From the IMG/VR virus record IMGVR_UViG_3300021356_000147, positions 1 through 25,809 of that record: a DNA stretch of 25,809 nt; one strand, written 5' to 3'. Positions 4,983 to 22,126 of the stretch are shown here, in pieces. Source of the stretch: a virus. How positions within the stretch are numbered: the stretch's first letter is position 1; every line of letters begins with the position of its first letter. The translations under genes were made by a program, and so were the position numbers. Under the pieces are notes generated by a model. That model was not told the origin of the DNA, ran no database searches, and worked only from the letters and a program-made list of their open reading frames with translations.

Positions 4983-5314
4983 AAAAGTTGGCGTTGGGTA
5001 GCTTGCGTATGTCGGAACAAGAGTACAACGATACGACATTGCGCAGATTGCAGTATCGAATCGAGGGATTCTTTGAAGTGGAGAGCCGCCGCGAGCGGTA
5101 CGAATGGGAGCGCGTAAGATGGCAAAGTGCTTTAATACTGCAAATGTTTGCTAAGAAAGGACGTAAGATCAAGCCGCAGGACATCACTATTTTCCCCTGG
5201 GAGAAAGAAGCAAAAACGATACCGGCAGGGCGCAAAATGTCGCCCGAAGAGATCAAATCTAAGTTTGCGGAAACAGACAAAAGAATGCGAGAAAAATGGC
5301 AAAAAACAGGCTGA
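4835..5314 (+). CDS. Tail assembly chaperone, T-like extension (probably made by -1 frameshift)
   Basis: This ORF is in the -1 frame relative to the upstream chaperone and stays open from 4835 to 5314. It has no convincing start of its own: the first candidate is a TTG at 4988 with no supporting leader. Its core 'SWAELEKLALGSLRMSEQEYNDTTLRRLQYRIEGFFEV' begins upstream of that TTG, at about 4967. This resembles the T-domain and GTA-type chaperone pattern (W..L...A.G.L..s..E......r). I therefore read it as the C-terminal half of a programmed frameshift product that binds tape measure protein during tail assembly. It overlaps the tape measure start by 19 bases. Confidence 0.72.
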   Translation, partial: GRGRFARPRQRSPFKDYGRFQCRNAGAGKREKASTEETTNNKETSWAELEKLALGSLRMSEQEYNDTTLRRLQYRIEGFFEVESRRERYEWERVRWQSALILQMFAKKGRKIKPQDITIFPWEKEAKTIPAGRKMSPEEIKSKFAETDKRMREKWQKTG

Positions 5315-7749
5315 ATATAATTCTTGGCGTTGATGTCGGGCAGTTGGAAAGACAGCTCAACAAGGCAAAGCGCAGTCTAAACAAGTTTTCACGCGATGTA
5401 GAAAGGGTTGGCTCTACGTTAACGCAAAAAATCAGTGGCCCTATCGCGGCGCTAGGTGGGGTAAGCGTAAAAGTTTTTGCTGACTTTGAACTAGCGATGG
5501 CGAAAGTCAAAGCCGTCTCTGGCGCAACTGAAAAAGCGTTTGCTGACCTAAAAGATAGTGCGCTTGAATTAGGCCGAACAACTCAATTCACCGCTTCACA
5601 GGTAGCAGGACTGCAACTTAACTTATCAAAGCTTGGGTTTTCTCCTAAAGAAATCGAACAATCTACAGCCGCAATCTTAGACTTAGCACTCGCTACAGGC
5701 GAGGACTTAGCGCAATCGGCAACGGTCGCCGCTTCAACGCTTAGGGGTTTTGGCTTAGATGCTACCGAGATGCTCCGAGTGAGCAATGTCATGGCTGATA
5801 GTTTTTCAAGTACCGCGCTAGATTTGCAAAAATTTGGTGACGCAATGGCTTATGTTGCACCTGTCGCGACGCAGGCCGGGGCAAGTATGGAGCAAACTAC
5901 TGCCGTGTTAGGTACGCTGGTTAACAGGGGTGTTGATGCATCTAGCGCTGGCGCTGCGCTAAGAAATATATTCTTAGACCTAGCAGACAAGGGTTTGACA
6001 TGGAATGAAGCAATGGAGAAGGTTAGGGGTTCTACTAATCCGCTATCTACCTCTATGGAGCTTTTCGGGAAACGTGGCGCAACAGTAGCCACTATCATTG
6101 CCAATAATAGGGAGGAAATAACAGGGCTTACGGCTGACTTCATGGATAGCGAAGAAGAGGCGCGGCGCATGGCTGAGGTAATGGAAAATACGTTATCTGG
6201 TAGCTTTGAAAAATTAAAGTCAGCAGCGGAGGGCGCAGCCATTAGTCTTGGTGAAATATTAGCGCCGTATATCCGAAAAGCAGCAGACCGACTAAACGAA
6301 TTAATAACAAGATTCAACGAGCTTTCCCCTGAAACAAAGAGCGCTATAATAAGATTTGCGGGAATCGCCGCAGCAATCGGGCCGTTGCTTTTAGGTATTG
6401 CTGGACTAGCGCAAGGCATTGTGTTCATTGGCACAGGCTTAGCAGCGTTGGCTGGCCCGGCTGGACTTATTATAGCTGTTTTTGTAGCTATAGGATTGGC
6501 GGCAAGTAATCTAATAAAACGTTTTGGCGGCGTAGACAAAGCACTTATTTTTTTTCGTGCAAAAGTTGATGCTTTTGTGGCTGCTACAAAAGCAGCGGTA
6601 AATGGGTTAGTGGAAACATTGATTAGTCCGTTTAAAGCGCTAAAGCAAGCATCGTCTGGCGACTTTAAGGCAGCGCTGAACACGCTAAAAGGGGATGGAA
6701 AATCATTAGCGGAGAACATAAGCAATGTATATAATGAAACATTAGAAAACTCTCTTAGGGAAGGTGCTAAGCGAATGTTTGCTAACGAATACAGGCGCGA
6801 GCTAGCAAGCGGGGCTGATGGCGTAGAAGATGTTTTGAAAAGCAAAATTGATTCTATCCAAGGCTTGTTCAACCTGGAAGGTGACCTGACTCCGAACCTT
6901 AGCGGCAGCGGTGGCGATAAAGACGGCGATAAAGATGCAACGCAAAAAATAACAGTCACACCCGAAATAGAATTTTTAGACGCTGACGTGGAAGGATTGG
7001 GCGAGTTTGATTTTAGTATAGACGAAACAGCGGTGTTTACATTAGACGCATACCGCGAAGGGCTGGAAAAAGCAACCGAAGCGTCTAGGCTATTCGGTGC
7101 TACTGCTGGCGATGTATTACAGGAAAAGCTGAACTATACGAAGCAGTCTATACAGTCACTTCTGGACGAAGGTTACACTCCGCAAAGTGAAGCGGTTCAG
7201 ACACTGATGGAGCAATACAATTTACTAGGCAGTGAGTTGGATATACTTAACGAGAAGCAAGGACTTTTTGCACAACAGATACAAGCAGTTTCTGGTGTAG
7301 TTGGCAGTGTTCTTACAAGCGCTTTTGATGGGTTCTTTCAGATCATCGAACAAGGAGGAAAAAACGCTTTTGAGGGATTTGTTCAGGGTGCAAAAAAAGC
7401 GCTCGTGGACTTAGTTAAGCAACTAACGATAACATTGGCGAAAGCGGTTGCAGTGGCTGCCGTTATGTCAATTATCTTTCCCGGTTCAACCGCAACAGCA
7501 GGAGGATTTAAGGCCATATTTGGCAGCGTTTTTTCTGGAATACCTCTCGCCACCGGCGGTATCATTCCCCCAGGATACCCCAACGACACTTTCCCGGCTC
7601 GCTTATCTTCAGGGGAGGCTGTTATTCCGCTTGACAAATTAAACAGATACACAGGTGCAGGTGGCGGTACGTTGGAGGCCCGGATCAGTGGCGAAGACTT
7701 GTTGATATTAATGAAGCAAACAGAAACCAAATATAACAGATTTTCATAG
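5296..7749 (+). CDS. Tape measure protein
   Basis: The 817-residue protein sets tail length and is threaded through the tube. The N-terminal half has the phage minor tail/TMP region: coiled-coil start, then 'FADFELAMAKVKAVSGATEKAFADLKDSALELGRTTQFTASQVAGLQLNLSKLGFS' and 'VTQAGASMEQTTAVLGTLVNRGVDASSAGAALRNIF'. A long hydrophobic Ala/Gly-rich segment at about residues 350-410 and another near 700-730 are typical membrane-interacting TMP segments. The end has 'ATGGIIPPGYPNDTFPARLSSGEAVIPLDKL', a common TMP C-terminal motif. Using the usual rule of about 1.5 angstrom per residue, the tail would be roughly 120 nm long (inference). Confidence 0.94.
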   Translation: MAKNRLNIILGVDVGQLERQLNKAKRSLNKFSRDVERVGSTLTQKISGPIAALGGVSVKVFADFELAMAKVKAVSGATEKAFADLKDSALELGRTTQFTASQVAGLQLNLSKLGFSPKEIEQSTAAILDLALATGEDLAQSATVAASTLRGFGLDATEMLRVSNVMADSFSSTALDLQKFGDAMAYVAPVATQAGASMEQTTAVLGTLVNRGVDASSAGAALRNIFLDLADKGLTWNEAMEKVRGSTNPLSTSMELFGKRGATVATIIANNREEITGLTADFMDSEEEARRMAEVMENTLSGSFEKLKSAAEGAAISLGEILAPYIRKAADRLNELITRFNELSPETKSAIIRFAGIAAAIGPLLLGIAGLAQGIVFIGTGLAALAGPAGLIIAVFVAIGLAASNLIKRFGGVDKALIFFRAKVDAFVAATKAAVNGLVETLISPFKALKQASSGDFKAALNTLKGDGKSLAENISNVYNETLENSLREGAKRMFANEYRRELASGADGVEDVLKSKIDSIQGLFNLEGDLTPNLSGSGGDKDGDKDATQKITVTPEIEFLDADVEGLGEFDFSIDETAVFTLDAYREGLEKATEASRLFGATAGDVLQEKLNYTKQSIQSLLDEGYTPQSEAVQTLMEQYNLLGSELDILNEKQGLFAQQIQAVSGVVGSVLTSAFDGFFQIIEQGGKNAFEGFVQGAKKALVDLVKQLTITLAKAVAVAAVMSIIFPGSTATAGGFKAIFGSVFSGIPLATGGIIPPGYPNDTFPARLSSGEAVIPLDKLNRYTGAGGGTLEARISGEDLLILMKQTETKYNRFS

Positions 7750-10197
7750 ATGGCGATACGGCTTAGTTGTACGTTTTTTTCAAACGAAAATGAAACCTCT
7801 TATACAATAGAGATTCATGATGCCGCCTATTCGGGGAGTGTTATTGATTTTCGCACAGATGATAAAGGTTTTGAAATATCGTACTCAGGGGAAAAGCAAC
7901 AGCTAAGAGCACCAATTCTAACATCAAAATGCGACGTAAATATTTACGTCGAGAATCAAGATATTCAAGATTTAATAGACGACCTAAACAGCGCCTACGA
8001 AGGTCAATTTAGATTACTAATTAGCACAAGCAGCGCGGAAAGATGGGTAGGAATCATTTTGCCAGACTTGGTAAAATACGAAGATAAGCCCTTTGCAATT
8101 CTCCCGATATTCCGCGTAACCGCAACGGATGGAATTAAGCGATTACAAACTATCGCTTACAAGGACACATCTGGCCCCTATTCAGGAAGCAAAAGCGTAG
8201 TAGAACACCTTTCAAATATTGTCGGCAAAATTGGAACTGCTGATTTGATTACCACTAATGCATGGGCGATGGTAGTGGCTACAAATTGGAAGCCCGCCTC
8301 AATTAAGGCTGGCGACGTGATGGCAAACACTTATTTTGAACACCGCGCATTGTATCAGGTAGACGACAAAGGAGAGTATAAGTATAGCAGCGTCTACAGA
8401 GTATTAGAGCAGCTTTGTTTAGTTTTTCATTGTCAGTTCAAGATGGTGAATGGCTCCTTTTTTTTCACGCAACATAATTATCACGAAAGCTCAAGTTTTA
8501 CGACTTATTTATATACCGCTGCCGGATCGCTCGTAATATCTGGATCGTTGGCGATGGATAATACAGTATCTACCCTATTCACAGAAAAATATGCGGGTGG
8601 CTTTTACTCCTTTTTTCCGGCCCTGAACTACGCCCAAGTGAACTATGTACATATGGGCTTTTCTAATATTGCGCAGGGGTACATCTGGGATCATACCGAC
8701 CAGCCAACAATACCGGAAAGCCCGACATCGTATGACGTATCAGACGGGACTGGTTTTTTAGTTAGTTCAAATTTTTACTACTCGTTGGTAGTTACCGGAA
8801 ACAGACCATCGTTCATGAAGTTCAATATTACGCTTCAGGTAGATACTAACTACCTGAAGCGAACTACGAGTTTCACTGGCTTCGGTGCAACAACGGAGCA
8901 GGCGCAAGAAATTAGCGCCACCGTCGCAAACTACGAGCTAATTATCCCGGTTGACGTAACAGTACCGGGTTCACCGTCGCAATTCCTTGGCAGTGGGAAC
9001 ATTCCAATCTCATTTCAAACTATCCCATTTTCTACTGGCGGCGACGTATCTTTTACGATTTCGTATGTAGGCAGTTATGACACTACCGGCACAATTGTAA
9101 GCTCAGGAATTACTGGCCTTAACTGGTCGTTTTTTAATTTGCAACTTTCGCCGCTTCCCGGTGGTGAATTATCCCAATGGTCAAACACGCGAAAAGTAAT
9201 AGGCATAAATGCTACGTCAGGCAACACAGAGAAAAGAGTAATTAATTCAGTTATAGGTCAGGAGTTCGGGTACGGAGTACTGAAGATCGACGACGGCAGT
9301 GTTTTTATTGATGGCGTAGATTGGGGCTTAGGTGCTACCGCTTCGCAGAGCTTGGAAGTACTGCTGACAAAAGAGATAATAAGAACGCAGAGTGTACCGA
9401 TTAAGACGCTACGCGCTACCATAAAAATGTCGATGACGAACATCCACCAAACGATGGTTCACAATTCAAACAGGTGGATACTGCACAAAGGAAAATTTAC
9501 GGGAAATCTTGATCAGATGGCAGGTGAATGGTACTTACTAGACACCACGGGTACAACATCAAGCAGCGAAGAACTGGACGAGATTATAGGTGCAATAGAT
9601 AACGAAGGAAACGACATCAATACACAGATTCCGGTAATAGAAGGAGGTACGCCAGTTATTAACGCGCCACCCGGACAGTCAGAAACCACTTCGGTACTAG
9701 ACGCACTTTTTCCCCGGACTACCGCAGACATAGACGAAGCATCAACCGTCACCACTATTCCGATCACAGCGCGAACAGTAGACGGAGAGTACAAGGTCGG
9801 GCAGATTGTGACGATTATTAATCAGTTTACAGGTGCGCAGCAAGATTTCACGATTACAACCGAAAGTCAAACCAGCGATACGGTTTTGAATGTAACCAGC
9901 GATACCGCCGATTTCTTTTTTACGGAGGGTTCATGGATCGTAACGAGTCAGGAGCAGACATTAAGTAGTGGAGGCTCGACAGCCTTTTATCGAGAAGAAT
10001 TTACAGCACACGCAAGCACCACGATAACCGTAACGGAAAACAGCGGAAACTTACCGACCAATGCCGCAGCGATCCGGGTGTATTACGATACAGGGCAGCT
10101 TATTTCTAAAAATTATTGGAGTCATTCGGGTAGCGTGATTACGCTCACATTTACGCCGCCTGGACAGCAATCAATATGGGTAGAATTTAACGTATGA
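7750..10197 (+). CDS. Large tail-tip / baseplate hub-like protein
   Basis: This 815-residue, beta-rich protein starts one base after the tape measure stop, the place of distal-tail and hub proteins. It has no signal peptide, unlike the genes that follow it. The N-terminal 150 residues ('YTIEIHDAAYSG', 'PILTSKCDVNIYVENQDIQDLIDDL', 'RWVGIILPDL') resemble the tail-tip proteins that follow tape measure genes in Bacteroidota siphophages. Residues about 615-815 look like separate receptor-side domains, ending in 'TITVTENSGNLPTNAAAIRVYYD' and 'SVITLTFTPPGQQSIWVEFNV'. The gene also contains a 20-bp perfect palindrome (7932-7951) and a 12-bp stem hairpin (8831-8861). The exact role is inferred from position. 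Confidence 0.7.
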   Translation: MAIRLSCTFFSNENETSYTIEIHDAAYSGSVIDFRTDDKGFEISYSGEKQQLRAPILTSKCDVNIYVENQDIQDLIDDLNSAYEGQFRLLISTSSAERWVGIILPDLVKYEDKPFAILPIFRVTATDGIKRLQTIAYKDTSGPYSGSKSVVEHLSNIVGKIGTADLITTNAWAMVVATNWKPASIKAGDVMANTYFEHRALYQVDDKGEYKYSSVYRVLEQLCLVFHCQFKMVNGSFFFTQHNYHESSSFTTYLYTAAGSLVISGSLAMDNTVSTLFTEKYAGGFYSFFPALNYAQVNYVHMGFSNIAQGYIWDHTDQPTIPESPTSYDVSDGTGFLVSSNFYYSLVVTGNRPSFMKFNITLQVDTNYLKRTTSFTGFGATTEQAQEISATVANYELIIPVDVTVPGSPSQFLGSGNIPISFQTIPFSTGGDVSFTISYVGSYDTTGTIVSSGITGLNWSFFNLQLSPLPGGELSQWSNTRKVIGINATSGNTEKRVINSVIGQEFGYGVLKIDDGSVFIDGVDWGLGATASQSLEVLLTKEIIRTQSVPIKTLRATIKMSMTNIHQTMVHNSNRWILHKGKFTGNLDQMAGEWYLLDTTGTTSSSEELDEIIGAIDNEGNDINTQIPVIEGGTPVINAPPGQSETTSVLDALFPRTTADIDEASTVTTIPITARTVDGEYKVGQIVTIINQFTGAQQDFTITTESQTSDTVLNVTSDTADFFFTEGSWIVTSQEQTLSSGGSTAFYREEFTAHASTTITVTENSGNLPTNAAAIRVYYDTGQLISKNYWSHSGSVITLTFTPPGQQSIWVEFNV
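7932..7951. repeat. Perfect 20-bp palindrome within the tail-tip gene
   Basis: The half-site cgacgtaaat is followed directly by its exact reverse complement, giving a 20-bp dyad with no spacer. It lies inside a coding region, so it may be chance or a protein-binding site. It could also form a cruciform or hairpin. Confidence 0.6.
8831..8861. repeat. Strong hairpin (12-bp stem, 7-nt loop) inside the tail-tip gene
   Basis: The arms cgcttcaggtag (8831-8842) and ctacctgaagcg (8850-8861) are perfect reverse complements around the loop atactaa. No T run follows, so it is not an ordinary terminator. It is within the coding sequence, in the part encoding NITLQVDTNYLKRTT. Confidence 0.6.
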
Positions 10198-12710
10198 TGA
10201 AGAAATATTTTCGCATATCCTTTTTCTCTTTTGCAGTCAGTCGCCGATCTGATTGGCGCTGGCTGCAATTCGCATTAATAGCCACAGTGCTAACCTCCTG
10301 TACTGTGCAGATGAAAGTGAAAGAGGTTACTTCGCTTCCGGTGCCTAAGCAGCAAGTCGAACGAACACGCAGCGCCGCCGCACCCTGGCCCCGATTGTTT
10401 TGGGAGCAGATCGAAGCTGCCGACACGCTTGGCGCAATTGCGGTAGCGGATAACGATGGTAACGGCTATTGGTCGGACTCGCTTAGGTGGGAAAGTGGCG
10501 TATTGAAATTAGGAATTGATACCGCAGCAACACGTGCCTATGCTCGTAGTGTAAGCGCAGGAGGAGGAAGTACACAAGACTTGTTTTCGCAATTCACAGA
10601 CGTATTAGGCTTCTCCCCTGCCGTAGCCGACGATCCAAACGACGTATTAACGTTCAGGAGTCCTAATAGTACTATTTCGTTTTCGGCTTGGAATGATGAT
10701 GCGACTTATGGAGATTACTTAGCTTTTGACCTTGCGAGTAATGCGGTAAGTTGGTCGAGCTTGAAAGCAGCTGTGCAGGATTCAATACAGTTAGAGCGCG
10801 GCGCTGATGGAAACGGCGTTTTTGATGTCAGCAATTCTGGATCATCTGTGCCTGATAATATGACACTCGACGTAACAGACGAAATAATTTTTTCTACGGA
10901 AAACATTAATCAAAACCCCGTGATGGTTTTTGACTATGATGCAGGGGGTTCATATTCTACGCCGGGGTTCATTGAATTTAATTTGAATGAAACAACGGCC
11001 CCGTCTTTGGGTACGATTTCAGACCTTGTGACGCTTGATAACGCGGGAGTACAGAAGTTCTATTGGCGGTACGTTTCGACAGCCTCAGCAGAACAACTGG
11101 CGATGCAATCTGAAGTTAGTTGGTCTATTGGCAGCGGTGACGACTTTACGCTCTGGTCTGATGCCGATTTGATTATTGGAGACGGTGGCGAAACAGATAT
11201 ATTAGTTAATTTCTCATCCATCCAAAACACCCCTACGATTGATAATATCCTGGTACTTAACAGCAGTACAAATGTATTAGGCTATCGGGATATTTCGACA
11301 CTTGGAACAGACGACCAAACGATAGATGTCTTTTCTATTACTTCCAACACTTTGAATCTATCTTTAGAAGATGATGCAGAGGCAACTAAAACCGTTGACC
11401 TTTCGCCCTACTTAGATAATACAGATGCGCAAACGCTTTCTTTTTCTTCGCCTAACCTGACGATTACAGGGGGTAATTCGGTTGATATTTCAGCGATTCA
11501 GGACGGAACCGGAACAGACGACCAAAATATAAGCGGTTCGGGTCTGTCTGGAACGAACCTAACAATAGGGATTGAGGGTGGAAGTAACGAGGTGGTAGAT
11601 TTGGCCACATTGCAGGACGGAACCGGAACAGACGATCAAACAATAGATGTCTTTTCTATTACTTCCAACACTTTGAATCTATCTTTAGAAAGCGACGGCG
11701 AAGCCACCAAAACCGTTAGTCTTTTACCTTACCTAGATAACACTGACACCCAACTGACAGAGGAACAAGTAGAAGATTTTATTGGTGGCATGGTAACAGG
11801 TAACACTGAGTCCGGTATAACTGTAACTTATCAAGATACTGACGGAACATTAGATTTTTTAGCAACGGACAACTCAACCGTCAATGAGAGTTGGTGGATA
11901 CAAGGCGACACCGGAAGCGAAGCTGGTATAAAAGCCGATGACGGCGCTATAACTTTTGCAGGAGGTACAAACGTAACGACCGCGTATAATTCGACTTCAA
12001 ATACTCTAACGATTAACGCAACAGGTGGGAGTAGTTCTAATCTCTACGACAACGATGGTACATTAGCCGCAGCGCGAACAGTAGACCTTGACGGTAAGGT
12101 ATTGCGTTTCGAAGATAATGCTATTACTTCCTCGTTTCAGGTTGAAACAGGAAATCAAAGCGGGTTATTTGTAATCAAAGATCAATCAGCAGCCGATAGT
12201 CTAGCCTTTAGATACGATTACGCTTCAGGTGGCTATTCGTTGGAGTCTCTAGGATCAACGAATATTAATTTCATTGCTGGCGATGCCGGGAGTGTTGACC
12301 TCGGGGATGGTGACGCAAATTTAAGAATCTACTCGGACATTGAATACGATTCTACCGTGACACAGATATTAGTTAAAGACCCTATCACAAGATTGGTAAA
12401 ATACATCGACCAATCACGTGACAGAGTTTCAGACGAAGAAACAACGACCGTAACGGCTGTTGCAGGCGTGATTAACTTAGTGAATGTCACAAGTGGAACC
12501 GCTACCGTTACGCCTCCAAGCACACCCGAATCGGGAACATGGTTTGCAGTTTCGGATTCGAGAGGAAACGCAAGTACAAATAATATAACCGTCGATCTAA
12601 GTACCGACAAATACCACACTGACGCGGTAGACTACACGATGAATACAGACAACGCTTTTGCCCGGTTTACCTACGTTGATTCGACCGTAGGCTGGATAAG
12701 AAGCTTTTAA
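10194..12710 (+). CDS. Fibre-like repeat protein with lipoprotein signal
   Basis: This 838-residue protein overlaps the tail-tip gene by four bases and lies at the tail-fibre position. The N-terminus has a basic stretch, then a hydrophobic segment ending in a lipobox, LTSC, with Cys36 as the lipid site. The post-Cys segment CTVQMKVKE resembles CTIELHVPE in the next gene. The body is rich in Asp, Thr, Ser and Gly with repeats of the 'TDDQTIDVFSITSNTLNLSLE' and 'QTLSFSSPNLTITGGNSVDIS' types, like phage fibre shafts. The C-terminal part ('NVTSGTATVTPPSTPESGTWFAVSDSRGN') looks like a beta-type tip. A 48-base exact repeat lies within it (11322-11369, 11643-11690). Whether it is virion-bound, host-surface-bound or both is unknown. 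Confidence 0.75.
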   Translation: MMKKYFRISFFSFAVSRRSDWRWLQFALIATVLTSCTVQMKVKEVTSLPVPKQQVERTRSAAAPWPRLFWEQIEAADTLGAIAVADNDGNGYWSDSLRWESGVLKLGIDTAATRAYARSVSAGGGSTQDLFSQFTDVLGFSPAVADDPNDVLTFRSPNSTISFSAWNDDATYGDYLAFDLASNAVSWSSLKAAVQDSIQLERGADGNGVFDVSNSGSSVPDNMTLDVTDEIIFSTENINQNPVMVFDYDAGGSYSTPGFIEFNLNETTAPSLGTISDLVTLDNAGVQKFYWRYVSTASAEQLAMQSEVSWSIGSGDDFTLWSDADLIIGDGGETDILVNFSSIQNTPTIDNILVLNSSTNVLGYRDISTLGTDDQTIDVFSITSNTLNLSLEDDAEATKTVDLSPYLDNTDAQTLSFSSPNLTITGGNSVDISAIQDGTGTDDQNISGSGLSGTNLTIGIEGGSNEVVDLATLQDGTGTDDQTIDVFSITSNTLNLSLESDGEATKTVSLLPYLDNTDTQLTEEQVEDFIGGMVTGNTESGITVTYQDTDGTLDFLATDNSTVNESWWIQGDTGSEAGIKADDGAITFAGGTNVTTAYNSTSNTLTINATGGSSSNLYDNDGTLAAARTVDLDGKVLRFEDNAITSSFQVETGNQSGLFVIKDQSAADSLAFRYDYASGGYSLESLGSTNINFIAGDAGSVDLGDGDANLRIYSDIEYDSTVTQILVKDPITRLVKYIDQSRDRVSDEETTTVTAVAGVINLVNVTSGTATVTPPSTPESGTWFAVSDSRGNASTNNITVDLSTDKYHTDAVDYTMNTDNAFARFTYVDSTVGWIRSF
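11322..11369 (+). repeat. 48-bp exact direct repeat, copy 1
   Basis: Starts atagatgtcttttc and ends ctttagaa. The identical 48 bases occur again at 11643-11690, 321 bases downstream in the same reading frame. The surrounding region is also similar but diverged, so this is a coding duplication of a fibre-shaft unit. Confidence 0.85.
11643..11690 (+). repeat. 48-bp exact direct repeat, copy 2
   Basis: Identical to 11322-11369. After the repeat the copies diverge at synonymous and nonsynonymous sites (DDAEATKTVDL versus SDGEATKTVSL), as expected for an older duplication partly kept identical by recombination or selection. Confidence 0.85.
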
Positions 12711-12721
12711 AAAATAACGAG

Positions 12722-14128
12722 ATGAAAAGAATACTAATAATATTAATCCTATTTCTTGCAGGCTGTACAATCGAGTTGCACGTACCCGAACAGAAACCTA
12801 AGCCAATCGAAGCCGAACTACCCGACGTTAGCACAATTTTAGAAGATGACGCGGAACATGGCGGTATAGGTCAAAACGACGATATACCGCAGGCGTACGG
12901 AAATACGCGAATGGATGAACTACCATACTTGACGACCATATCTGACTCTATCGAGTTTCTGACTATTCACGGCGAAACAGGTTCTAAAGCATGGAAACGA
13001 TTTACCGCCGAAACCGTTCAGAATTATGTAGCATTGGAGGCCGGAGGTATTACCGCCGATATTCTTGCAGATTCGACAGCAGCAGTAAGAGCAGACTTTC
13101 CGGCCAGTGGTGGCGCTTCGGAGCTTTCCGATCTAACCGACGTAAACACCTCTACTCCTACAAATCGCAACGTCTTGATAGGTGATGGCGTAGACTTCGA
13201 AAGCCGCGCATTAGTGGAGGCCGATATAAGCGATTTAAGCCATACAACAAACACCGATGCGCAAACACTTTCTTTTTCTTCGCCTAATATTACGATCACG
13301 GGCGGCAACTCAATCGACATTTCAGCAATTCAAGACGGAACGGGAACTGATGACCAGACCGCAAGCGAGGTAAATATTACAGATGCAGGATACCATTATA
13401 CAGGAACGACGGTAGAAACCGCATTGCAAGAAGTTGGCGATAGTATAGACGTACACCGTACCGCAATCGACGCACTAAGCGCCGCAGGGGTGGCGGATGG
13501 TGACAAAGGAGATATAACCGTTTCGGGTTCCGGCACGGTATGGAGTATCGACGCGGGTGTTGTAGGCGCTACGGAATTAGCGAGTACAACCGTGACCCCG
13601 GCGAGCTATACCTACTCGACAATTACAGTAGACGCAGACGGGCGATTGACGGCGGCAAGTTCGGGAACAGCACCAACAGACGATCAGACCGCCGCAGAGG
13701 TGAACATAACCGATTCGGGTTCGCACTACACAGGAACGACAGTTGAGGCGGCTTTGCAGGAGGTTGGAGATAGTATAGCCGCGCACCAGAGCGAAGCGGA
13801 AAAACACTATAGGTTGCTCGCCGTTACTCCTGCTACAGATAGTACTATTACGATTAACTTGGCAAGCTACAGGGGTACAGTAGCGCAAATCAATATGACA
13901 ACCGCAAGCACAACGAAAACAATTGTCGTGACGGTTTCTAATCCCGTTACGGCGGGTGTTTATACTTTTCATTGGCAGAGTACGGGAAGCACCAACAGTT
14001 TGAATCTGCCAGCTACCTTCTTAGACCAAACCGGAACGGCGTTAGATGCCGGAACGACTTACGATATAGACGCAAGCGACGTATTTTTCACTTGCTATTA
14101 CGACGGCACAAATTACTATTGCAAATGA
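12722..14128 (+). CDS. Second fibre-like lipoprotein with phage tail repeats
   Basis: The 468-residue protein starts with a textbook lipoprotein signal: MKR, a hydrophobic core, and the lipobox LAGC with Cys15. The following stretch CTIELHVPE matches the same place in the previous gene. The middle shares the segment NTDAQTLSFSSPN(I/L)TITGGNS(I/V)DISAIQDGTGTDDQ with that gene. Two copies of the unit TAxEVNITDxGxHYTGTTVExALQEVGDSI (coded at about 13357-13447 and 13687-13777) are phage tail fibre repeats, probably trimeric. The C-terminus has a separate beta domain ending in 'DVFFTCYYDGTNYYCK', with two Cys that could pair after export. The stop overlaps the next start (ATGA). Confidence 0.77.
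   Translation: MKRILIILILFLAGCTIELHVPEQKPKPIEAELPDVSTILEDDAEHGGIGQNDDIPQAYGNTRMDELPYLTTISDSIEFLTIHGETGSKAWKRFTAETVQNYVALEAGGITADILADSTAAVRADFPASGGASELSDLTDVNTSTPTNRNVLIGDGVDFESRALVEADISDLSHTTNTDAQTLSFSSPNITITGGNSIDISAIQDGTGTDDQTASEVNITDAGYHYTGTTVETALQEVGDSIDVHRTAIDALSAAGVADGDKGDITVSGSGTVWSIDAGVVGATELASTTVTPASYTYSTITVDADGRLTAASSGTAPTDDQTAAEVNITDSGSHYTGTTVEAALQEVGDSIAAHQSEAEKHYRLLAVTPATDSTITINLASYRGTVAQINMTTASTTKTIVVTVSNPVTAGVYTFHWQSTGSTNSLNLPATFLDQTGTALDAGTTYDIDASDVFFTCYYDGTNYYCK
13357..13777 (+). repeat. Two diverged copies of a phage tail repeat (13357-13447 and 13687-13777)
   Basis: Each copy is about 91 bases and encodes TAxEVNITDxGxHYTGTTVExALQEVGDSI. The copies differ mainly at third positions. 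The motif is a widespread tail fibre shaft unit; two copies in one chain suggest a modular fibre. Confidence 0.75.
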
Positions 14129-15033
14129 TAAGAACAATCTTAATATTACTTTTTCCGGTGTTCGCTTTTGGTCAACAGGGAATGTTGCTGGTTAGTAGTC
14201 CAGCGGCGGGTGGTGGTGACCTACTACTAGACACCTACACAGGAGCCGAAGCTGCTTACGCAATGAATCTTCTTAGTTCTGACTATTCAGGATCATGTAT
14301 TAGAGTCAGAAGAGATTCAGATGATGCAGAGTCAGATATAGGTTTTTCAGGTAATGATATAGATGAAACAACGCTTCTTTCCTTTTGTGCTTCAACAGAT
14401 TGCTTTGTCACAACTTGGTATGATCAATCAGGAGAAGGTAATAATGCCACACAAACTACTGATGCAAAGCAACCACAAATCGTATCAAGTGGAACAATAA
14501 TTAAAAATGGTGATGGAGAAGTAGCTATCCGGCTTTTTGATGATGATGGTTCTAATACAGAACAACATATGATATTCCCGGTATGGCATACAGTGTCAAC
14601 ACAAGTATTGAATGTATTTGCAGTATATGAATATAATTCCACAAATGGATTTTACGGGGCGTTGATTAGTAATGTTGATGCGCTATATATTAATCAAGAC
14701 GTAGGTGAGTTAAGACCTCGCATAGTATCAGTAAGAGGAAGTGTAAAAATACTACGGGCTGGAGATAAATTAAGCACAGAAAACCCTTTTCTTTTGTATG
14801 CTGGAGTAGATAGAACTAATTTATTTTGGGGGTATAACAATAACGCACTTACGACTGGCTCAGATGTTGATTCTGATTTCAAGTCAACAAGTAAGGATTA
14901 TTATATTGGCAACAGTGAGGCAATAAATAAATATGATTATGACATATCATTAATTATTTGCTACCCCTCCGACCAATCATCAAACCGCACAGCAATAGAA
15001 ACAATTATCAATAATTATTACTCAATATACTAA
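14125..15033 (+). CDS. Exported arabinofuranosidase-catalytic-like / lectin-like domain protein
   Basis: I place the start at ATG 14125, which overlaps the previous stop as ATGA; upstream in-frame codons lie in the preceding gene. The 302-residue product opens with a signal peptide (MIRTILILLFPVFAFG, cleavage likely before Gln-Gln). Then comes 'YAMNLLSSDYSGSCIRVRRDSDDAESDIGF' and 'FCASTDCFVTTWYDQSGEGNNATQTTDAKQPQIV', the signature of the alpha-L-arabinofuranosidase B catalytic-like (concanavalin-like) domain found in many phage and Bacteroidota surface proteins. Such domains bind or cut polysaccharides. After about 14280 the base composition drops sharply (about 27-32% GC in sampled lines against 57% in a sampled line of the previous gene), suggesting acquisition from elsewhere. 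Confidence 0.78.
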   Translation: MIRTILILLFPVFAFGQQGMLLVSSPAAGGGDLLLDTYTGAEAAYAMNLLSSDYSGSCIRVRRDSDDAESDIGFSGNDIDETTLLSFCASTDCFVTTWYDQSGEGNNATQTTDAKQPQIVSSGTIIKNGDGEVAIRLFDDDGSNTEQHMIFPVWHTVSTQVLNVFAVYEYNSTNGFYGALISNVDALYINQDVGELRPRIVSVRGSVKILRAGDKLSTENPFLLYAGVDRTNLFWGYNNNALTTGSDVDSDFKSTSKDYYIGNSEAINKYDYDISLIICYPSDQSSNRTAIETIINNYYSIY

Positions 15034-15034
15034 T

Positions 15035-15427
15035 ATGAAAAAGATACTATTAATTTTCGCGCTTTGCATATTCGCACTAAGCGCAACAGGACAAACCACG
15101 ATTATCGACTACGCCGGAGTTTGGGCCGAAAAACAGCACCAAATTAGGCTCGAAGTAGCCATACACGCTACGGCCTCGAATATTTTAGATACTCCCGCAG
15201 ATTCGATTTTTGCCGCCAAAGCGGTGGGCGTGATCCTAAGTAGTAATATGGATTCTTACAAGCGCAGATACACCCGTGAAGCGATTAAGCGCAAAGTAAA
15301 CCCAAATGCGCTCGGTGACACGCAATTGATAAATGGGGTTCGTTCGCTATTCATCGCCGAATATTGGGCAGAGCAACTTCGGAATGGATTAATTACCGCT
15401 ACCGAATACTACGCCGAAACACAGTAA
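15035..15427 (+). CDS. Small secreted protein, unknown function
   Basis: The 130-residue product begins with a clear signal peptide (MKKILLIFALCIFALSATG, likely cleaved before Gln-Thr-Thr). The mature part is mostly helical: 'VWAEKQHQIRLEVAIHATASNILD', 'FAAKAVGVILSSNMDSYKRRYTREAIKRKVNP' and 'LINGVRSLFIAEYWAEQL'. The mature region resembles small proteins that sit after tail genes in other phages, though those usually lack a signal peptide. It is the fourth gene in a row with an export signal and starts two bases after the previous stop. GC returns to the level of the rest of the phage. Function not recognised. Confidence 0.72.
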   Translation: MKKILLIFALCIFALSATGQTTIIDYAGVWAEKQHQIRLEVAIHATASNILDTPADSIFAAKAVGVILSSNMDSYKRRYTREAIKRKVNPNALGDTQLINGVRSLFIAEYWAEQLRNGLITATEYYAETQ

Positions 15428-15490
15428 TTATACATTAACTGTGATACTACTTATTAGCGACTAACAAACCCCCGTGAAAACCCTAAAAAA

Positions 15491-16093
15491 ATGGACTTGT
15501 TAATTCTGATTTTGTTGGCGTTTGGCGGTGGCTTCGCTTCTACGCATTACGTAATCTACCGTTTGCGAAACTCCAACAAAATGAAATCGGTAATGATCAT
15601 GGAGTTAAAAATTGAGAATGTATTAGAATCAATACTCAATCATACGATTATTGACCGGGCGCTACTGTGCAAAGTTCACAATGGGGGCACACCGATATTA
15701 GTGGGTTCGGAAAAGAAAATATCTATTATCGTCGAACCTGACGATAGCCTTAGACCGCATACTCAGGCGACTTATACCGCGTTTCCGATTGACAATAATT
15801 ATAAACGCATACTAATTGAAATGATGGATCGCAAAGATATGTTTGTAATACATAAAATTAGCGAGGAGCAGGACAGTGTTTTTTTTCGCAAAAGCGAAGC
15901 CGACGGTCTGGTAGAAGTAATGCATTACTATGTCGGAGAAAGTGAAACAGGGGTGTATTATTTGTTTCTTGGCACATTGACCGGGCCAGGGGAAATCTTA
16001 CGACACAACACACAGCGCAACCGGATAGAAGAGCAGTTGGTTGTAGCTAGAAAATTAGTCAAAAAAGCGATAAGAAAAAAAAGATTAAAATAA
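15491..16093 (+). CDS. Membrane-anchored protein with possible GAF-like domain
   Basis: This 200-residue protein has one N-terminal membrane helix (about residues 3-23, LLILILLAFGGGFASTHYVIY), a helical linker and then a cytoplasmic or periplasmic domain. That domain carries 'RALLCKVHNGGTPILVGSEKKISIIVE', 'FPIDNNYKRILIEMMDRKDMFVIHKI' and 'MHYYVGESETGVYYLFLGTL'. The order and the 'K.HNGG' element suggest a GAF-like sensory fold, but I recognise this by impression only. A very basic tail ends the chain. It is the first gene of the block before the holin-like gene, so a role in lysis timing is possible but unproven. Confidence 0.65.
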   Translation: MDLLILILLAFGGGFASTHYVIYRLRNSNKMKSVMIMELKIENVLESILNHTIIDRALLCKVHNGGTPILVGSEKKISIIVEPDDSLRPHTQATYTAFPIDNNYKRILIEMMDRKDMFVIHKISEEQDSVFFRKSEADGLVEVMHYYVGESETGVYYLFLGTLTGPGEILRHNTQRNRIEEQLVVARKLVKKAIRKKRLK

Positions 16094-16838: not shown

Positions 16839-17972
16839 CTATTTTTTGTCGTGAAAATCCTTTCTGCAAGCGTCACAGCAATATTTAGCACGTGCAGTCC
16901 TTTGCGATATGTCAGCGTCGCAATTCAGGCAGTATCTTTTACCGTCGGCTTTTTTTACCGTCGGCTTTTTTTTACGTCGGAGTTTTTGCGTCGAAACCGA
17001 CGGTGTTGCGTCCGTAGGACGATTTACCGTTTGCGTCGCAACCTCCTGTATAATATCCCGTAACTCGCTTATCTGCTGACTTTGCGCAATTATCTGAGCC
17101 GTTACCCTATCTAATTCCATATCCGATGCAATCACTCGTAGGTTAGGTCGTTCCGTCGGAGCGTCGGACGGAACAGAGCGCTTTTGCGTCGGGTTCTTTT
17201 GCGTCCGGTTAGCAAACCGTTCCACGTCGGTTTCGTCTTTTTCGGCCCAAAATAAAAACGCAATTAATAGCAAATCCAACAGCGCAGCAACACCGCCAAA
17301 AATCGCACCGAACCGGGAGAACTTAGTATTATGCGCAATCAACAAGCCGTCGTTTTCTTTTTCGTCGCGTTGGCTTAATCTTATTTTCTCCTGTATTAAT
17401 CCTGCTTTGATTTTGTTCGCTGAATTAATACCGTCACGTGCGCCGCGAGTCAAAACTCCTTTCCATTTTGAAGTAGATAAAATCTTAATCGCTTGGTCTT
17501 GCTCAGCGATCAAAAGCGAGATACTATCGATTGACGCATTATGTACTAGGGTAGCGCCTTTGTTTTCTTCGCTTACAAACTTGTCTCCTCCATGATAAGA
17601 TACCGTCATTGAGGCGGCAAGCGTGATGAATATTAAGACAACCCAACCTCGTTGGTTAGCGTCCTCCGTATTATATACACCTTGTGCAGTTGATAGGATA
17701 GCAAACCGCTTGCCAAGTTCATTAAGGATTAGCAGCATAATTGCAGCAGCCCACACAACGTATATATGAAACCCTGTATAATCTGCCGCGTAATGGTACA
17801 CCGCGTAAGATGCTGTTAAAACGCTGAATATTTGAAAAAGGTAAGATGTACCACGAAGCGCACCAACACGGATGCGCTTGTTCCTGATTTCATCTCTTCT
17901 GATTTCCCGCTTTGAAAGTACCTCATCTATGAATGCTTCGTTTGATTGTTTTATAATGTCCTGATTCCTCAT
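16839..17972 (-). CDS. Four-pass membrane protein with C-terminal zinc finger
   Basis: This 377-residue protein is the last gene of the leftward operon. The N-terminal 40 residues are charged. Hydrophobic helices lie near residues 44-60, 68-85, 109-126 and 221-243; between the third and fourth is a loop of about 95 residues that would be periplasmic. After the fourth helix comes a basic, Pro/Thr-rich linker with a short coiled coil (287-312). The end is a probable zinc finger, with Cys348 and Cys351 in CLNC and Cys365/366 and Cys369 in YCCDAC. The topology puts the finger in the cytoplasm, so it could tether nucleic acid to the membrane. Not recognised as a known phage family; superinfection exclusion, DNA anchoring or host takeover are only possibilities. 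Confidence 0.72.
   Translation of the reverse strand: MRNQDIIKQSNEAFIDEVLSKREIRRDEIRNKRIRVGALRGTSYLFQIFSVLTASYAVYHYAADYTGFHIYVVWAAAIMLLILNELGKRFAILSTAQGVYNTEDANQRGWVVLIFITLAASMTVSYHGGDKFVSEENKGATLVHNASIDSISLLIAEQDQAIKILSTSKWKGVLTRGARDGINSANKIKAGLIQEKIRLSQRDEKENDGLLIAHNTKFSRFGAIFGGVAALLDLLLIAFLFWAEKDETDVERFANRTQKNPTQKRSVPSDAPTERPNLRVIASDMELDRVTAQIIAQSQQISELRDIIQEVATQTVNRPTDATPSVSTQKLRRKKKPTVKKADGKRYCLNCDADISQRTARAKYCCDACRKDFHDKK
16871..17235. repeat. Cluster of CGTC(G/C) motifs
   Basis: Within about 365 bases the tetramer CGTC occurs 14 times on the plus strand, usually as cgtcgg or gcgtcg, and three more times on the other strand. Two 16-base units (accgtcggc plus seven T) repeat at 16941-16972, followed by a partial third. 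Part of this follows from Thr, Pro and Asp codons in the linker of the leftward gene, but the density is far above chance (about 1.5 expected per strand). Confidence 0.6.
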
Positions 17973-17984
17973 AAGGCTTTGATT

Positions 17985-18356
17985 TTATAGGTTAATCTCT
18001 TTTGTTATTTTAATTTCCACTACGAACCCAATTCTTTCCAGTTCAATTTTTGCAGCTTTTAGGGTTTCGAATAATGTCTTTTCGTGCGTATGAACCGAGG
18101 GTGTCCTTATTGCCTTTGTTTTCGTCTTTTTGTGATCGTTATTATATTTATAGACATTTTTCTTTATGCTCAACCTATCTTCTCGGTCGATAGGATTAGG
18201 GCCATTGTATTTTCTATACTCGTTGACAAGGCCCATCTGCCTAATTACTGTAGAGTATGCCCGCGCACATTTCGCTTTGTCGGTTGTTTTGTTAGATACC
18301 AATGACCCGGTTTGAATCAAGTCAAAAAAATAATTTTCTGCATCCGTTAATCTCAT
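17985..18356 (-). CDS. Hypothetical protein of the leftward operon
   Basis: The 123-residue product starts 'MRLTDAENYFFDLIQTGSLVSNKTTDKAKCARAYSTVIRQMGLV', a helical region that could be a small DNA-binding or interaction domain. A basic middle (NNDHKKTKTKAIR) and a mixed end ('LFETLKAAKIELERIGFVVEIKITKEI') follow. No membrane helix or known motif is visible. It overlaps the upstream membrane gene by four bases (ATGA) and lies 12 bases before the zinc-finger gene, so it is part of one transcript. Function unknown. Confidence 0.65.
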   Translation of the reverse strand: MRLTDAENYFFDLIQTGSLVSNKTTDKAKCARAYSTVIRQMGLVNEYRKYNGPNPIDREDRLSIKKNVYKYNNDHKKTKTKAIRTPSVHTHEKTLFETLKAAKIELERIGFVVEIKITKEINL

Positions 18357-18634
18357 AAGGCTTTGATTTTATAATTGATTTCAAATTCTTTTTCTTCTTC
18401 AATTGCTTCTTCCTCCCAATCCTTTCCCGTGTCCTGGTACGTTATATACTCACCTTCATGGTCCGCCTCTAAGCGACCCCGTAAGCGCTTGTTTTCTAAC
18501 TCCAATGCCTGAATGTATAGGCTTCGCTTTTTCTCCCGAAATAGGGTATTGAAAGCGCCCACGAAAAGAAACGCCCATAATTCAAATGTTAAGAGAAAAA
18601 ACGCGATTGCTGAAAGTGCCCATCCGTATTCCAT
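18353..18634 (-). CDS. Single-pass membrane protein with acidic coiled-coil tail
   Basis: This 93-residue protein has one hydrophobic helix near the N-terminus (about residues 5-29, WALSAIAFFLLTFELWAFLFV). A cytoplasmic helix 'RSLYIQALELENKRLRGRLE' and a very acidic end (DWEEEAIEEEKEFE) follow. Its ATG directly abuts the stop of the 38-residue RHH gene, and its end overlaps the next gene by four bases. It probably works with the other membrane protein of the operon, but no family is recognised. Confidence 0.7.
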   Translation of the reverse strand: MEYGWALSAIAFFLLTFELWAFLFVGAFNTLFREKKRSLYIQALELENKRLRGRLEADHEGEYITYQDTGKDWEEEAIEEEKEFEINYKIKAL

Positions 18635-21319: not shown

Positions 21320-22126
21320 ATGGCTAAATATAGGCAAGTACAGACAAGCTTTTGGACTGACCCGGAAATGCTGGAAGAAACTCCGGAAAAGAAATTTTTC
21401 TACATATACTTATTTACAAATCCAAAAGTAACACAGTGCGGGATTTATGAAATTAGCTTGATGGAGATCGCATTTCAAACCGGGTATAATTTTCAGACAG
21501 TAAACAAATTGATTGCATATTTTGAAGAGCGCGGAAAAATAGTTCATAGCAAAGAGACTCATGAGATTTGCTTAATCAACTTCATGAAACATAATACTAG
21601 CTCTTCCCCTAAAATAATTGCATGTGTTCAAAAGGAGTTAAAAAACGTAAAAAACAGGGATTTAATAGGGTATGTATATGGTATAAATAGGGCTTCGCAA
21701 GAAAAAGAAAAAGAAAAAGAAAAAGAAAAAGAAAAAGAAAAAGAAAAAGAAAAAGAATTGATTGTTGATAATGTAATTAATCAATTAGAATACAATGAAC
21801 CAGTAGACTTATTTGAAAAATTCTGGGAATTATATTCTAAAAAAATAGATAAGAAAAAATGCGCCGCAAAATTTAAACGATTGAAAAAATCTGAAATAGA
21901 ATTAATCCTGGCGCATGTTCCTGCTTACGTAAAAAGCACCCCTGACGAACAATACCGGAAGAATCCCCTCACGTACCTAAATGGAAACTGCTGGAACAAT
22001 GAAATCATTAAGCCTCGCCAAAAACAAAAACCGAATGCACATCTACGTGTAGCATCGGGAGAAGAGTATAAACGGAAAGCAAAAGAAGCGGCGATATTAA
22101 CAAAGACCAAAGTTTATTCAATGTAA
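21320..22126 (+). CDS. Phage replication initiator-like protein with Glu-Lys repeat
   Basis: This 268-residue protein has an N-terminal winged-helix region: 'YRQVQTSFWTDPEMLEETPEKKFFYIYLFTNP', 'GIYEISLMEIAFQTGYNFQTVNKLIAYFEERGKIVHS' and 'ICLINFMKH' (to about residue 93). This is the pattern of phage replisome organisers that precede DnaC-like loaders. A (Glu-Lys)9 linker, coded by nine exact gaaaaa units at 21701-21754, separates it from a C-terminal domain ('FEKFWELYSKKIDKKKCAAKFKRLKKSEIELILAHVPAYVKS' ... 'KNPLTYLNGNCWNNEII'). That C-terminal domain is common in phage replication proteins. It likely binds the origin and recruits the loader coded next. Confidence 0.82.
   Translation: MAKYRQVQTSFWTDPEMLEETPEKKFFYIYLFTNPKVTQCGIYEISLMEIAFQTGYNFQTVNKLIAYFEERGKIVHSKETHEICLINFMKHNTSSSPKIIACVQKELKNVKNRDLIGYVYGINRASQEKEKEKEKEKEKEKEKEKELIVDNVINQLEYNEPVDLFEKFWELYSKKIDKKKCAAKFKRLKKSEIELILAHVPAYVKSTPDEQYRKNPLTYLNGNCWNNEIIKPRQKQKPNAHLRVASGEEYKRKAKEAAILTKTKVYSM
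21701..21754 (+). repeat. Hexamer microsatellite (gaaaaa)9 in the initiator gene
   Basis: Nine exact tandem gaaaaa units encode nine Glu-Lys pairs in frame. Since the unit is six bases, gain or loss of copies keeps the reading frame and only changes linker length. It also makes this stretch prone to replication slippage and sequencing error. Confidence 0.95.

Follow-up and report, generated by a model that had tools for sequence, protein, structure and literature searches.

We note that four consecutive genes directly behind the tail-tip gene of a marine siphovirus-like phage, probably infecting Bacteroidota, each begin with an export signal and that, as judged from the sequence, these signals are real and conserved. 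This leads us to propose that the four probably form an adhesin module (fibre or tailspike) whose proteins leave the cytoplasm through Sec and become attached to tails outside it. The host Sec system would export the products of the genes starting at 10194, 12722, 14125 and 15035; signal peptidase I would cut the 14125 and 15035 precursors before Gln, and the 10194 and 12722 precursors would be lipidated at Cys via the SPII pathway. The periplasm or the outer membrane would then be the place where the mature proteins fold, and the adhesins would join tails where the compartments meet, either as the envelope opens at lysis or afterwards.

Export signals behind the tail tip

The window, i.e. the whole stretch of DNA analysed (25,809 nucleotides), is a 25.8-kb IMG/VR record with genes for a prohead protease (158), a major capsid protein (767), connectors, a tail terminator (3743; Pfam Tail_completion_gp17) and a tape measure (5296). 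The tail-tip gene (7750..10197, plus strand) has no signal and lies directly 5' of the exported block; after it come 10194, 12722, 14125 and 15035, then the membrane-anchored 15491 and the holin-like 16312, with no signal-less fibre gene between the tail-tip and holin-like genes. The tail-tip protein is 27% identical to that of L008 (5825-8155) and is a homologue of Cellulophaga phage phi12:1 gp58, whose counterpart in phi18:1, gp59, is annotated in GenBank as an MS/MS virion protein. Its resemblance to phi12:1 gp58, together with Gln after both type I signals, makes a Bacteroidota host likely. No large terminase or portal gene was recognised in the 25.8-kb record, so it is probably a fragment, and no integrase or lysogeny gene was recognised in it.

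Elsewhere in the window, the protein of 15491-16093, encoded after the exported block and before the holin-like gene, combines a membrane segment at its N-terminus with a ~160-aa soluble domain and has no family match. An identical 22-bp sequence (CTCATAAGGCTTTGATTTTATA) occurs at 17968-17989 and 18352-18373, at the start of and just 5' of two minus-strand genes (16839-17972 and 17985-18356), and the pair is probably a shared promoter or operator. The gene at 21320-22126 contains a Lys-Glu codon run (EKEKEKEKEK) at 21696-21760.

The preliminary description had reported four consecutive export signals, and both the translations and the DNA confirm them, all on the plus strand. The first gene (10194..12710) encodes an 838-aa lipoprotein with the N-terminus MMKKYFRISFFSFAVSRRSDWRWLQFALIATVLTSC followed by TVQMKVKE; its signal peptide (10194..10298) has a long n-region and the lipobox LTSC, the codon of Cys36 is at 10299-10301, and the ATG overlaps the stop of the upstream gene. 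The second (12722..14128) encodes a 468-aa lipoprotein beginning with MKRILIILILFLAGC and then TIELHVPE, with the signal peptide at 12722..12763, the lipobox LAGC and the Cys15 codon at 12764-12766. Both lipoboxes place Cys after a hydrophobic core, as in the SPII class, and lipidation is predicted. The third gene (14125..15033) has an ATG that overlaps the stop of 12722, the listed open reading frame starting at an upstream TTG (13972), and encodes a 302-aa protein, predicted to be exported, that begins with MIRTILILLFPVFAFG followed by QQG (type I signal peptide 14125..14172, FAFG/Q). The last of the block (15035..15427) encodes a 130-aa protein, also predicted to be exported, beginning with MKKILLIFALCIFALSATG and then QTT (type I signal peptide 15035..15091, SATG/Q). 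In both type I cases a hydrophobic signal is followed by Gln, as in Q-rule substrates of signal peptidase I.

Signals were called with a simple caller, not SignalP. In the window it flagged 6 of 35 genes, namely the four, the holin-like protein and a 63-aa membrane protein; for four consecutive genes among six flagged, p is ~0.008 from placement alone. At related loci the caller flagged 9 of 694 genes (1.3%), and together the run and this rate put the signals beyond chance. The segment that 10194 and 12722 were said to have in common after the Cys (CTVQMKVKE and CTIELHVPE) is real and short, with 4 of 9 residues identical, and a third phage lipoprotein, from L104, starts alike (C-SLTFEVKQPE). 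The surface-export signal of Bacteroidota lipoproteins takes the form K-(D/E)2, Q-A-(D/E)2 or one like SDDDD/SDDFE (PMC5080379). No such acidic signal is present at +2 to +6 after the Cys of 10194 or 12722, and none of the four proteins has a Pfam match at E<=1 to a T9SS C-terminal domain (Por_Secre_tail, CHU_C type), so that a periplasmic location before lysis appears more likely than surface display.

Conservation in homologues, which had been named as a way to check the signals, is borne out by the near relative L004, which retains all four. The 12722 signal is identical there, that of 10194 is conserved and that of 15035 is retained with 3 residues changed; 14125 keeps its signal in a protein that is only 47% identical as a whole and whose mature part is partly alike. 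The tail-tip gene next to the block is 99% identical between the two. The 12722-14128 gene and its L004 counterpart (13974-15494) encode 468 and 506 aa, with extra repeat material in L004. The tape measures of these nearly identical phages (5296-7749 and L004:6757-9000) differ in the N-terminal part and have the C-terminal part in common; the difference is a module exchange.

Probable signal cleavage and the spread of signals among phages

Most signal peptidase I substrates of Bacteroidota expose Gln (the Q-rule; PMC5837995). Among 58 exported phage proteins, chosen without regard to Gln, 49 have a Q-type site within residues 13-42; when the same residues were shuffled 2000 times, such sites turned up in 15.7 of the 58 on average and in 28 at most, and 187 of 912 control genes have one. 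That most proteins conform to the Q-rule points to real signal-peptidase cleavage, and at the level of sequence it is strongly supported that the fibre-locus proteins are exported and not cytoplasmic. For this phage group, the cytoplasmic assembly of tail fibres that the preliminary description took as its premise does not appear to hold.

D[ST][AILMVT] is the O-glycosylation motif of Bacteroidota. It is found 7.3 times per 1000 aa in the exported proteins as compared to 3.9 in other virion proteins, which composition explains (z 0.5), and because the excess is no greater than composition predicts, the idea that the exported proteins are O-glycosylated is unsupported. Cysteine content is alike, at 4.0 per 1000 in exported and 3.7 in other virion proteins.

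The 10194 protein carries fibre repeats of the QDGTGTDDQ type, common to 12722 and to L012, and includes a direct repeat (11304..11753, plus strand) with copies at 11304-11432 and 11625-11753 that are 82% identical. Its first ~120 mature residues are related to signal-bearing proteins of L094, L098, L100, L095 and L092, and its C-terminus to L100. In 12722, which likewise has fibre repeats, 13250-13367 repeats 11418-11535 of 10194 (79%), and hypothetical proteins from phages of Rhodobacter, Synechococcus and Maribacter match it in part. The 15035 protein has no match in Pfam, PHROG or the phage collection, its sole homologue found being that of L004. Many chromosomally encoded proteins with signals in Flavobacteriia and their relatives contain the same QDGTGTDDQ repeat, which makes an exchange with host surface genes likely.

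Where the 5' end is intact, the repeat protein starts with a Sec-type signal in all 14 other phage contigs related through the fibre repeats (the script called 13; in L101, which has a long n-region, the signal was recognised by eye); the 14 include the independent counterpart set of L012, and L012 adds one more case. Signal genes often stand at the fibre locus in blocks of 3-6 consecutive genes (six in L099), the preceding structural genes having no signals. Just 5' of the repeat protein, a paired-cysteine exported family is common to L092:7124, L094:6114, L095:5787 and L100:7147, with CVEGDTLLNDPxCxWC in 3 of its 4 phages; no match to the L012 and L092:7124 proteins turned up in the phage collection. 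In most relatives through the tape measure, the genes that follow the tail tip lack signals, which indicates that export is dispensable; an exception is L012, where an internal start gives MKRIFLTLFFLIGFLVQC followed by Gln on a protein with the same fibre repeats. Among isolates, no fibre signals were found in phi18:1, phi46:1, Flavobacterium phage 11b, immuto or Maribacter phage Panino, and the structural genes read in phi46:3 likewise had no signal. The signal-less fibre proteins of phi18:1 and phi46:1 indicate that both designs exist.

Probable virion membership and competing explanations

In three Cellulophaga isolates (phi19:1, phi10:1 and phi39:1), the GenBank notes give MS/MS detection in virions for 10 of the 11 fibre-locus proteins that bear signals. 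All four consecutive signal genes of phi19:1 (gp101-104: structural protein, pectate lyase, tail fibre and structural protein) are so listed, as are gp91-94 of the five in phi10:1 (gp91-95) and both gp25 and gp26 of phi39:1; since phi19:1 is related to phi10:1, the three amount to about two independent lineages. Hydrophobic or membrane-type neighbours (phi19:1 gp105-108, phi10:1 gp96-99, phi39:1 gp27 and gp31) carry no such annotation, and this argues against simple contamination by membranes or their general carry-over. We also observed that phi39:1 gp23 (NC_021804 15917-16291), MS/MS-listed and with a hydrophobic start, has a doubtful start site and runs in a different frame from gp22, whose end it overlaps. 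The detection of signal-bearing adhesins in virions suggests that these phages probably export adhesins and mount them in the envelope or after lysis.

Of the window proteins, 14125 has the clearest virion homology. It matches Pfam PF09206 (ArabFuran-catal, 1e-11) over residues 39-115, an adhesin-type domain here, and phrog_10356 (virion structural, 1e-15); an AlphaFold2 model from three sequences reached a mean pLDDT of 33. The domain recurs at 35% identity (E 2e-40) in a signal-less protein of L008 encoded 3' of its tail-tip homologue, and, again with no signal, in Synechococcus phage S-CBS4 gp059 and Gordonia phage Lucky10 gp27. In two tape-measure relatives it is fused to the tail terminator (Tail_completion_gp17), in two copies in L044 (3065-5914) and at 7187-8359 in L049, where the adhesin is apparently placed on the terminator. 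These fusions and the signal-less L008 copy indicate that a domain that is tail-borne in relatives is carried here on an exported protein. Virion or tail homology of 12722 and 10194 comes through repeats and partial matches only, and for 15035 there is no match. From homology and position, the MS/MS annotations of relatives and the terminator fusions, we infer that the window proteins are virion members; if export and virion membership both hold, it would follow that they are mounted either in the envelope or once lysis has occurred.

The main rival to this explanation is that the four belong to the surface or periplasm of the infected cell or lysogen and serve in receptor masking (superinfection exclusion), sugar binding or altered adhesion, and that the MS/MS detection in relatives reflects vesicles or debris containing non-virion proteins. 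Two of the four are lipoproteins, chromosomally encoded surface proteins of Bacteroidota with signals contain the same repeats, and outer-membrane modification was suggested for Q-rule proteins of Porphyromonas gingivalis phages (PMC10367356). Nonetheless we consider this unlikely: three isolates list such proteins in virions with the neighbouring membrane-type genes unlisted, relatives fuse the 14125 domain to the tail terminator, neither Cys is followed by the lipoprotein surface-export signal (PMC5080379), and a location straight after the tail tip fits adhesin genes. The exported-adhesin explanation is itself weakest where lipidated 10194 and 12722 must reach virions: as lipoproteins they would be membrane-anchored, and the MS/MS-listed signal proteins are type I or ambiguous cases with no canonical lipoprotein among them.

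Alternatively, the proteins might be virion fibres of the ordinary sort, built in the cytoplasm, with an uncut hydrophobic N-terminus that serves as a tail plug or anchor, which would explain their presence in virions without a new assembly route. This is improbable, because a tail plug would not need Gln after an SPI-type site in 49 of 58 proteins, the lipoboxes would be equally unexplained, and the equivalent fibres of phi18:1, phi46:1 and L008 have no hydrophobic N-terminus.

That the proteins are chimeras whose signals and repeats were captured from host surface genes and whose signals are now non-functional remnants seems very improbable: the abundance of the repeat in signal-bearing host proteins makes capture a plausible origin, but the signals are retained in 18 other phage contigs or isolates, including on repeat-unrelated proteins such as pectate lyases, conform to the host Q-rule, and survive exchange of the mature domain (14125 and L004). 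The interpretations in the preliminary description therefore fare unequally, with attachment to virions on lysis strongly supported by the three Cellulophaga isolates and the tail-borne 14125 domain, the host-gene origin plausible and the remnant status unsupported.

Comparison with known systems

We are somewhat inclined to extend the exported-adhesin explanation to several lineages of tailed Bacteroidota phages, whose virions would come from two compartments, head and tail being cytoplasmic and the full adhesin set Sec-exported, with some members lipidated. Tail adhesins are of a known kind; their assembly route here is possibly new. If the proposal is true, exported adhesins processed by signal peptidase represent an assembly route unlike that of textbook tailed phages, and would explain why fibre genes of Bacteroidota phages are often labelled ‘hypothetical’ or as outer-membrane modifiers. 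A missing signal peptide, taken as support for phage origin in a study of phage diversity-generating retroelements (PMC6199706), would then be the wrong criterion for phage virion proteins in Bacteroidota, and receptor-binding-protein prediction would be affected. A partial literature search found no report of exported tail fibres in Bacteroidota phages, and the work that came nearest was that on phages of P. gingivalis.

Superinfection-exclusion lipoproteins of the T5 Llp type are short, receptor-blocking and phage-encoded; those of the window are likewise phage lipoproteins, but they are long, repeat-rich and clustered at the fibre locus. Chromosomal QDGTGTDDQ proteins of Bacteroidota resemble them in combining a signal peptide with the same repeat, but are mostly host genes with different N-terminal sequences (VGINTTNP...LIPR type). 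Phages of P. gingivalis (proposed Nixviridae) encode Q-rule signal proteins of unknown function described as potential outer-membrane modifiers (PMC10367356), a suggestion repeated in PMC10653852. As in the window, they have Sec signals with Gln at +1, suited to the Bacteroidota signal peptidase I; unlike in our reading, they were not linked to tail fibres or virions (PMC10367356). The fibres or spikes of phi18:1 (gp60-61) and L008 occupy the same region after the tail-tip gene, with the same C-terminal domain as 14125 in L008, but have no signal peptide. Finally, phi19:1 and phi10:1 (Assiduviridae) and phi39:1 differ in their type I or ambiguous signals, pectate-lyase tailspikes and lack of canonical lipoproteins, but like the window they carry consecutive signal genes (4, 5 and 2, respectively) 3' of their tail genes.
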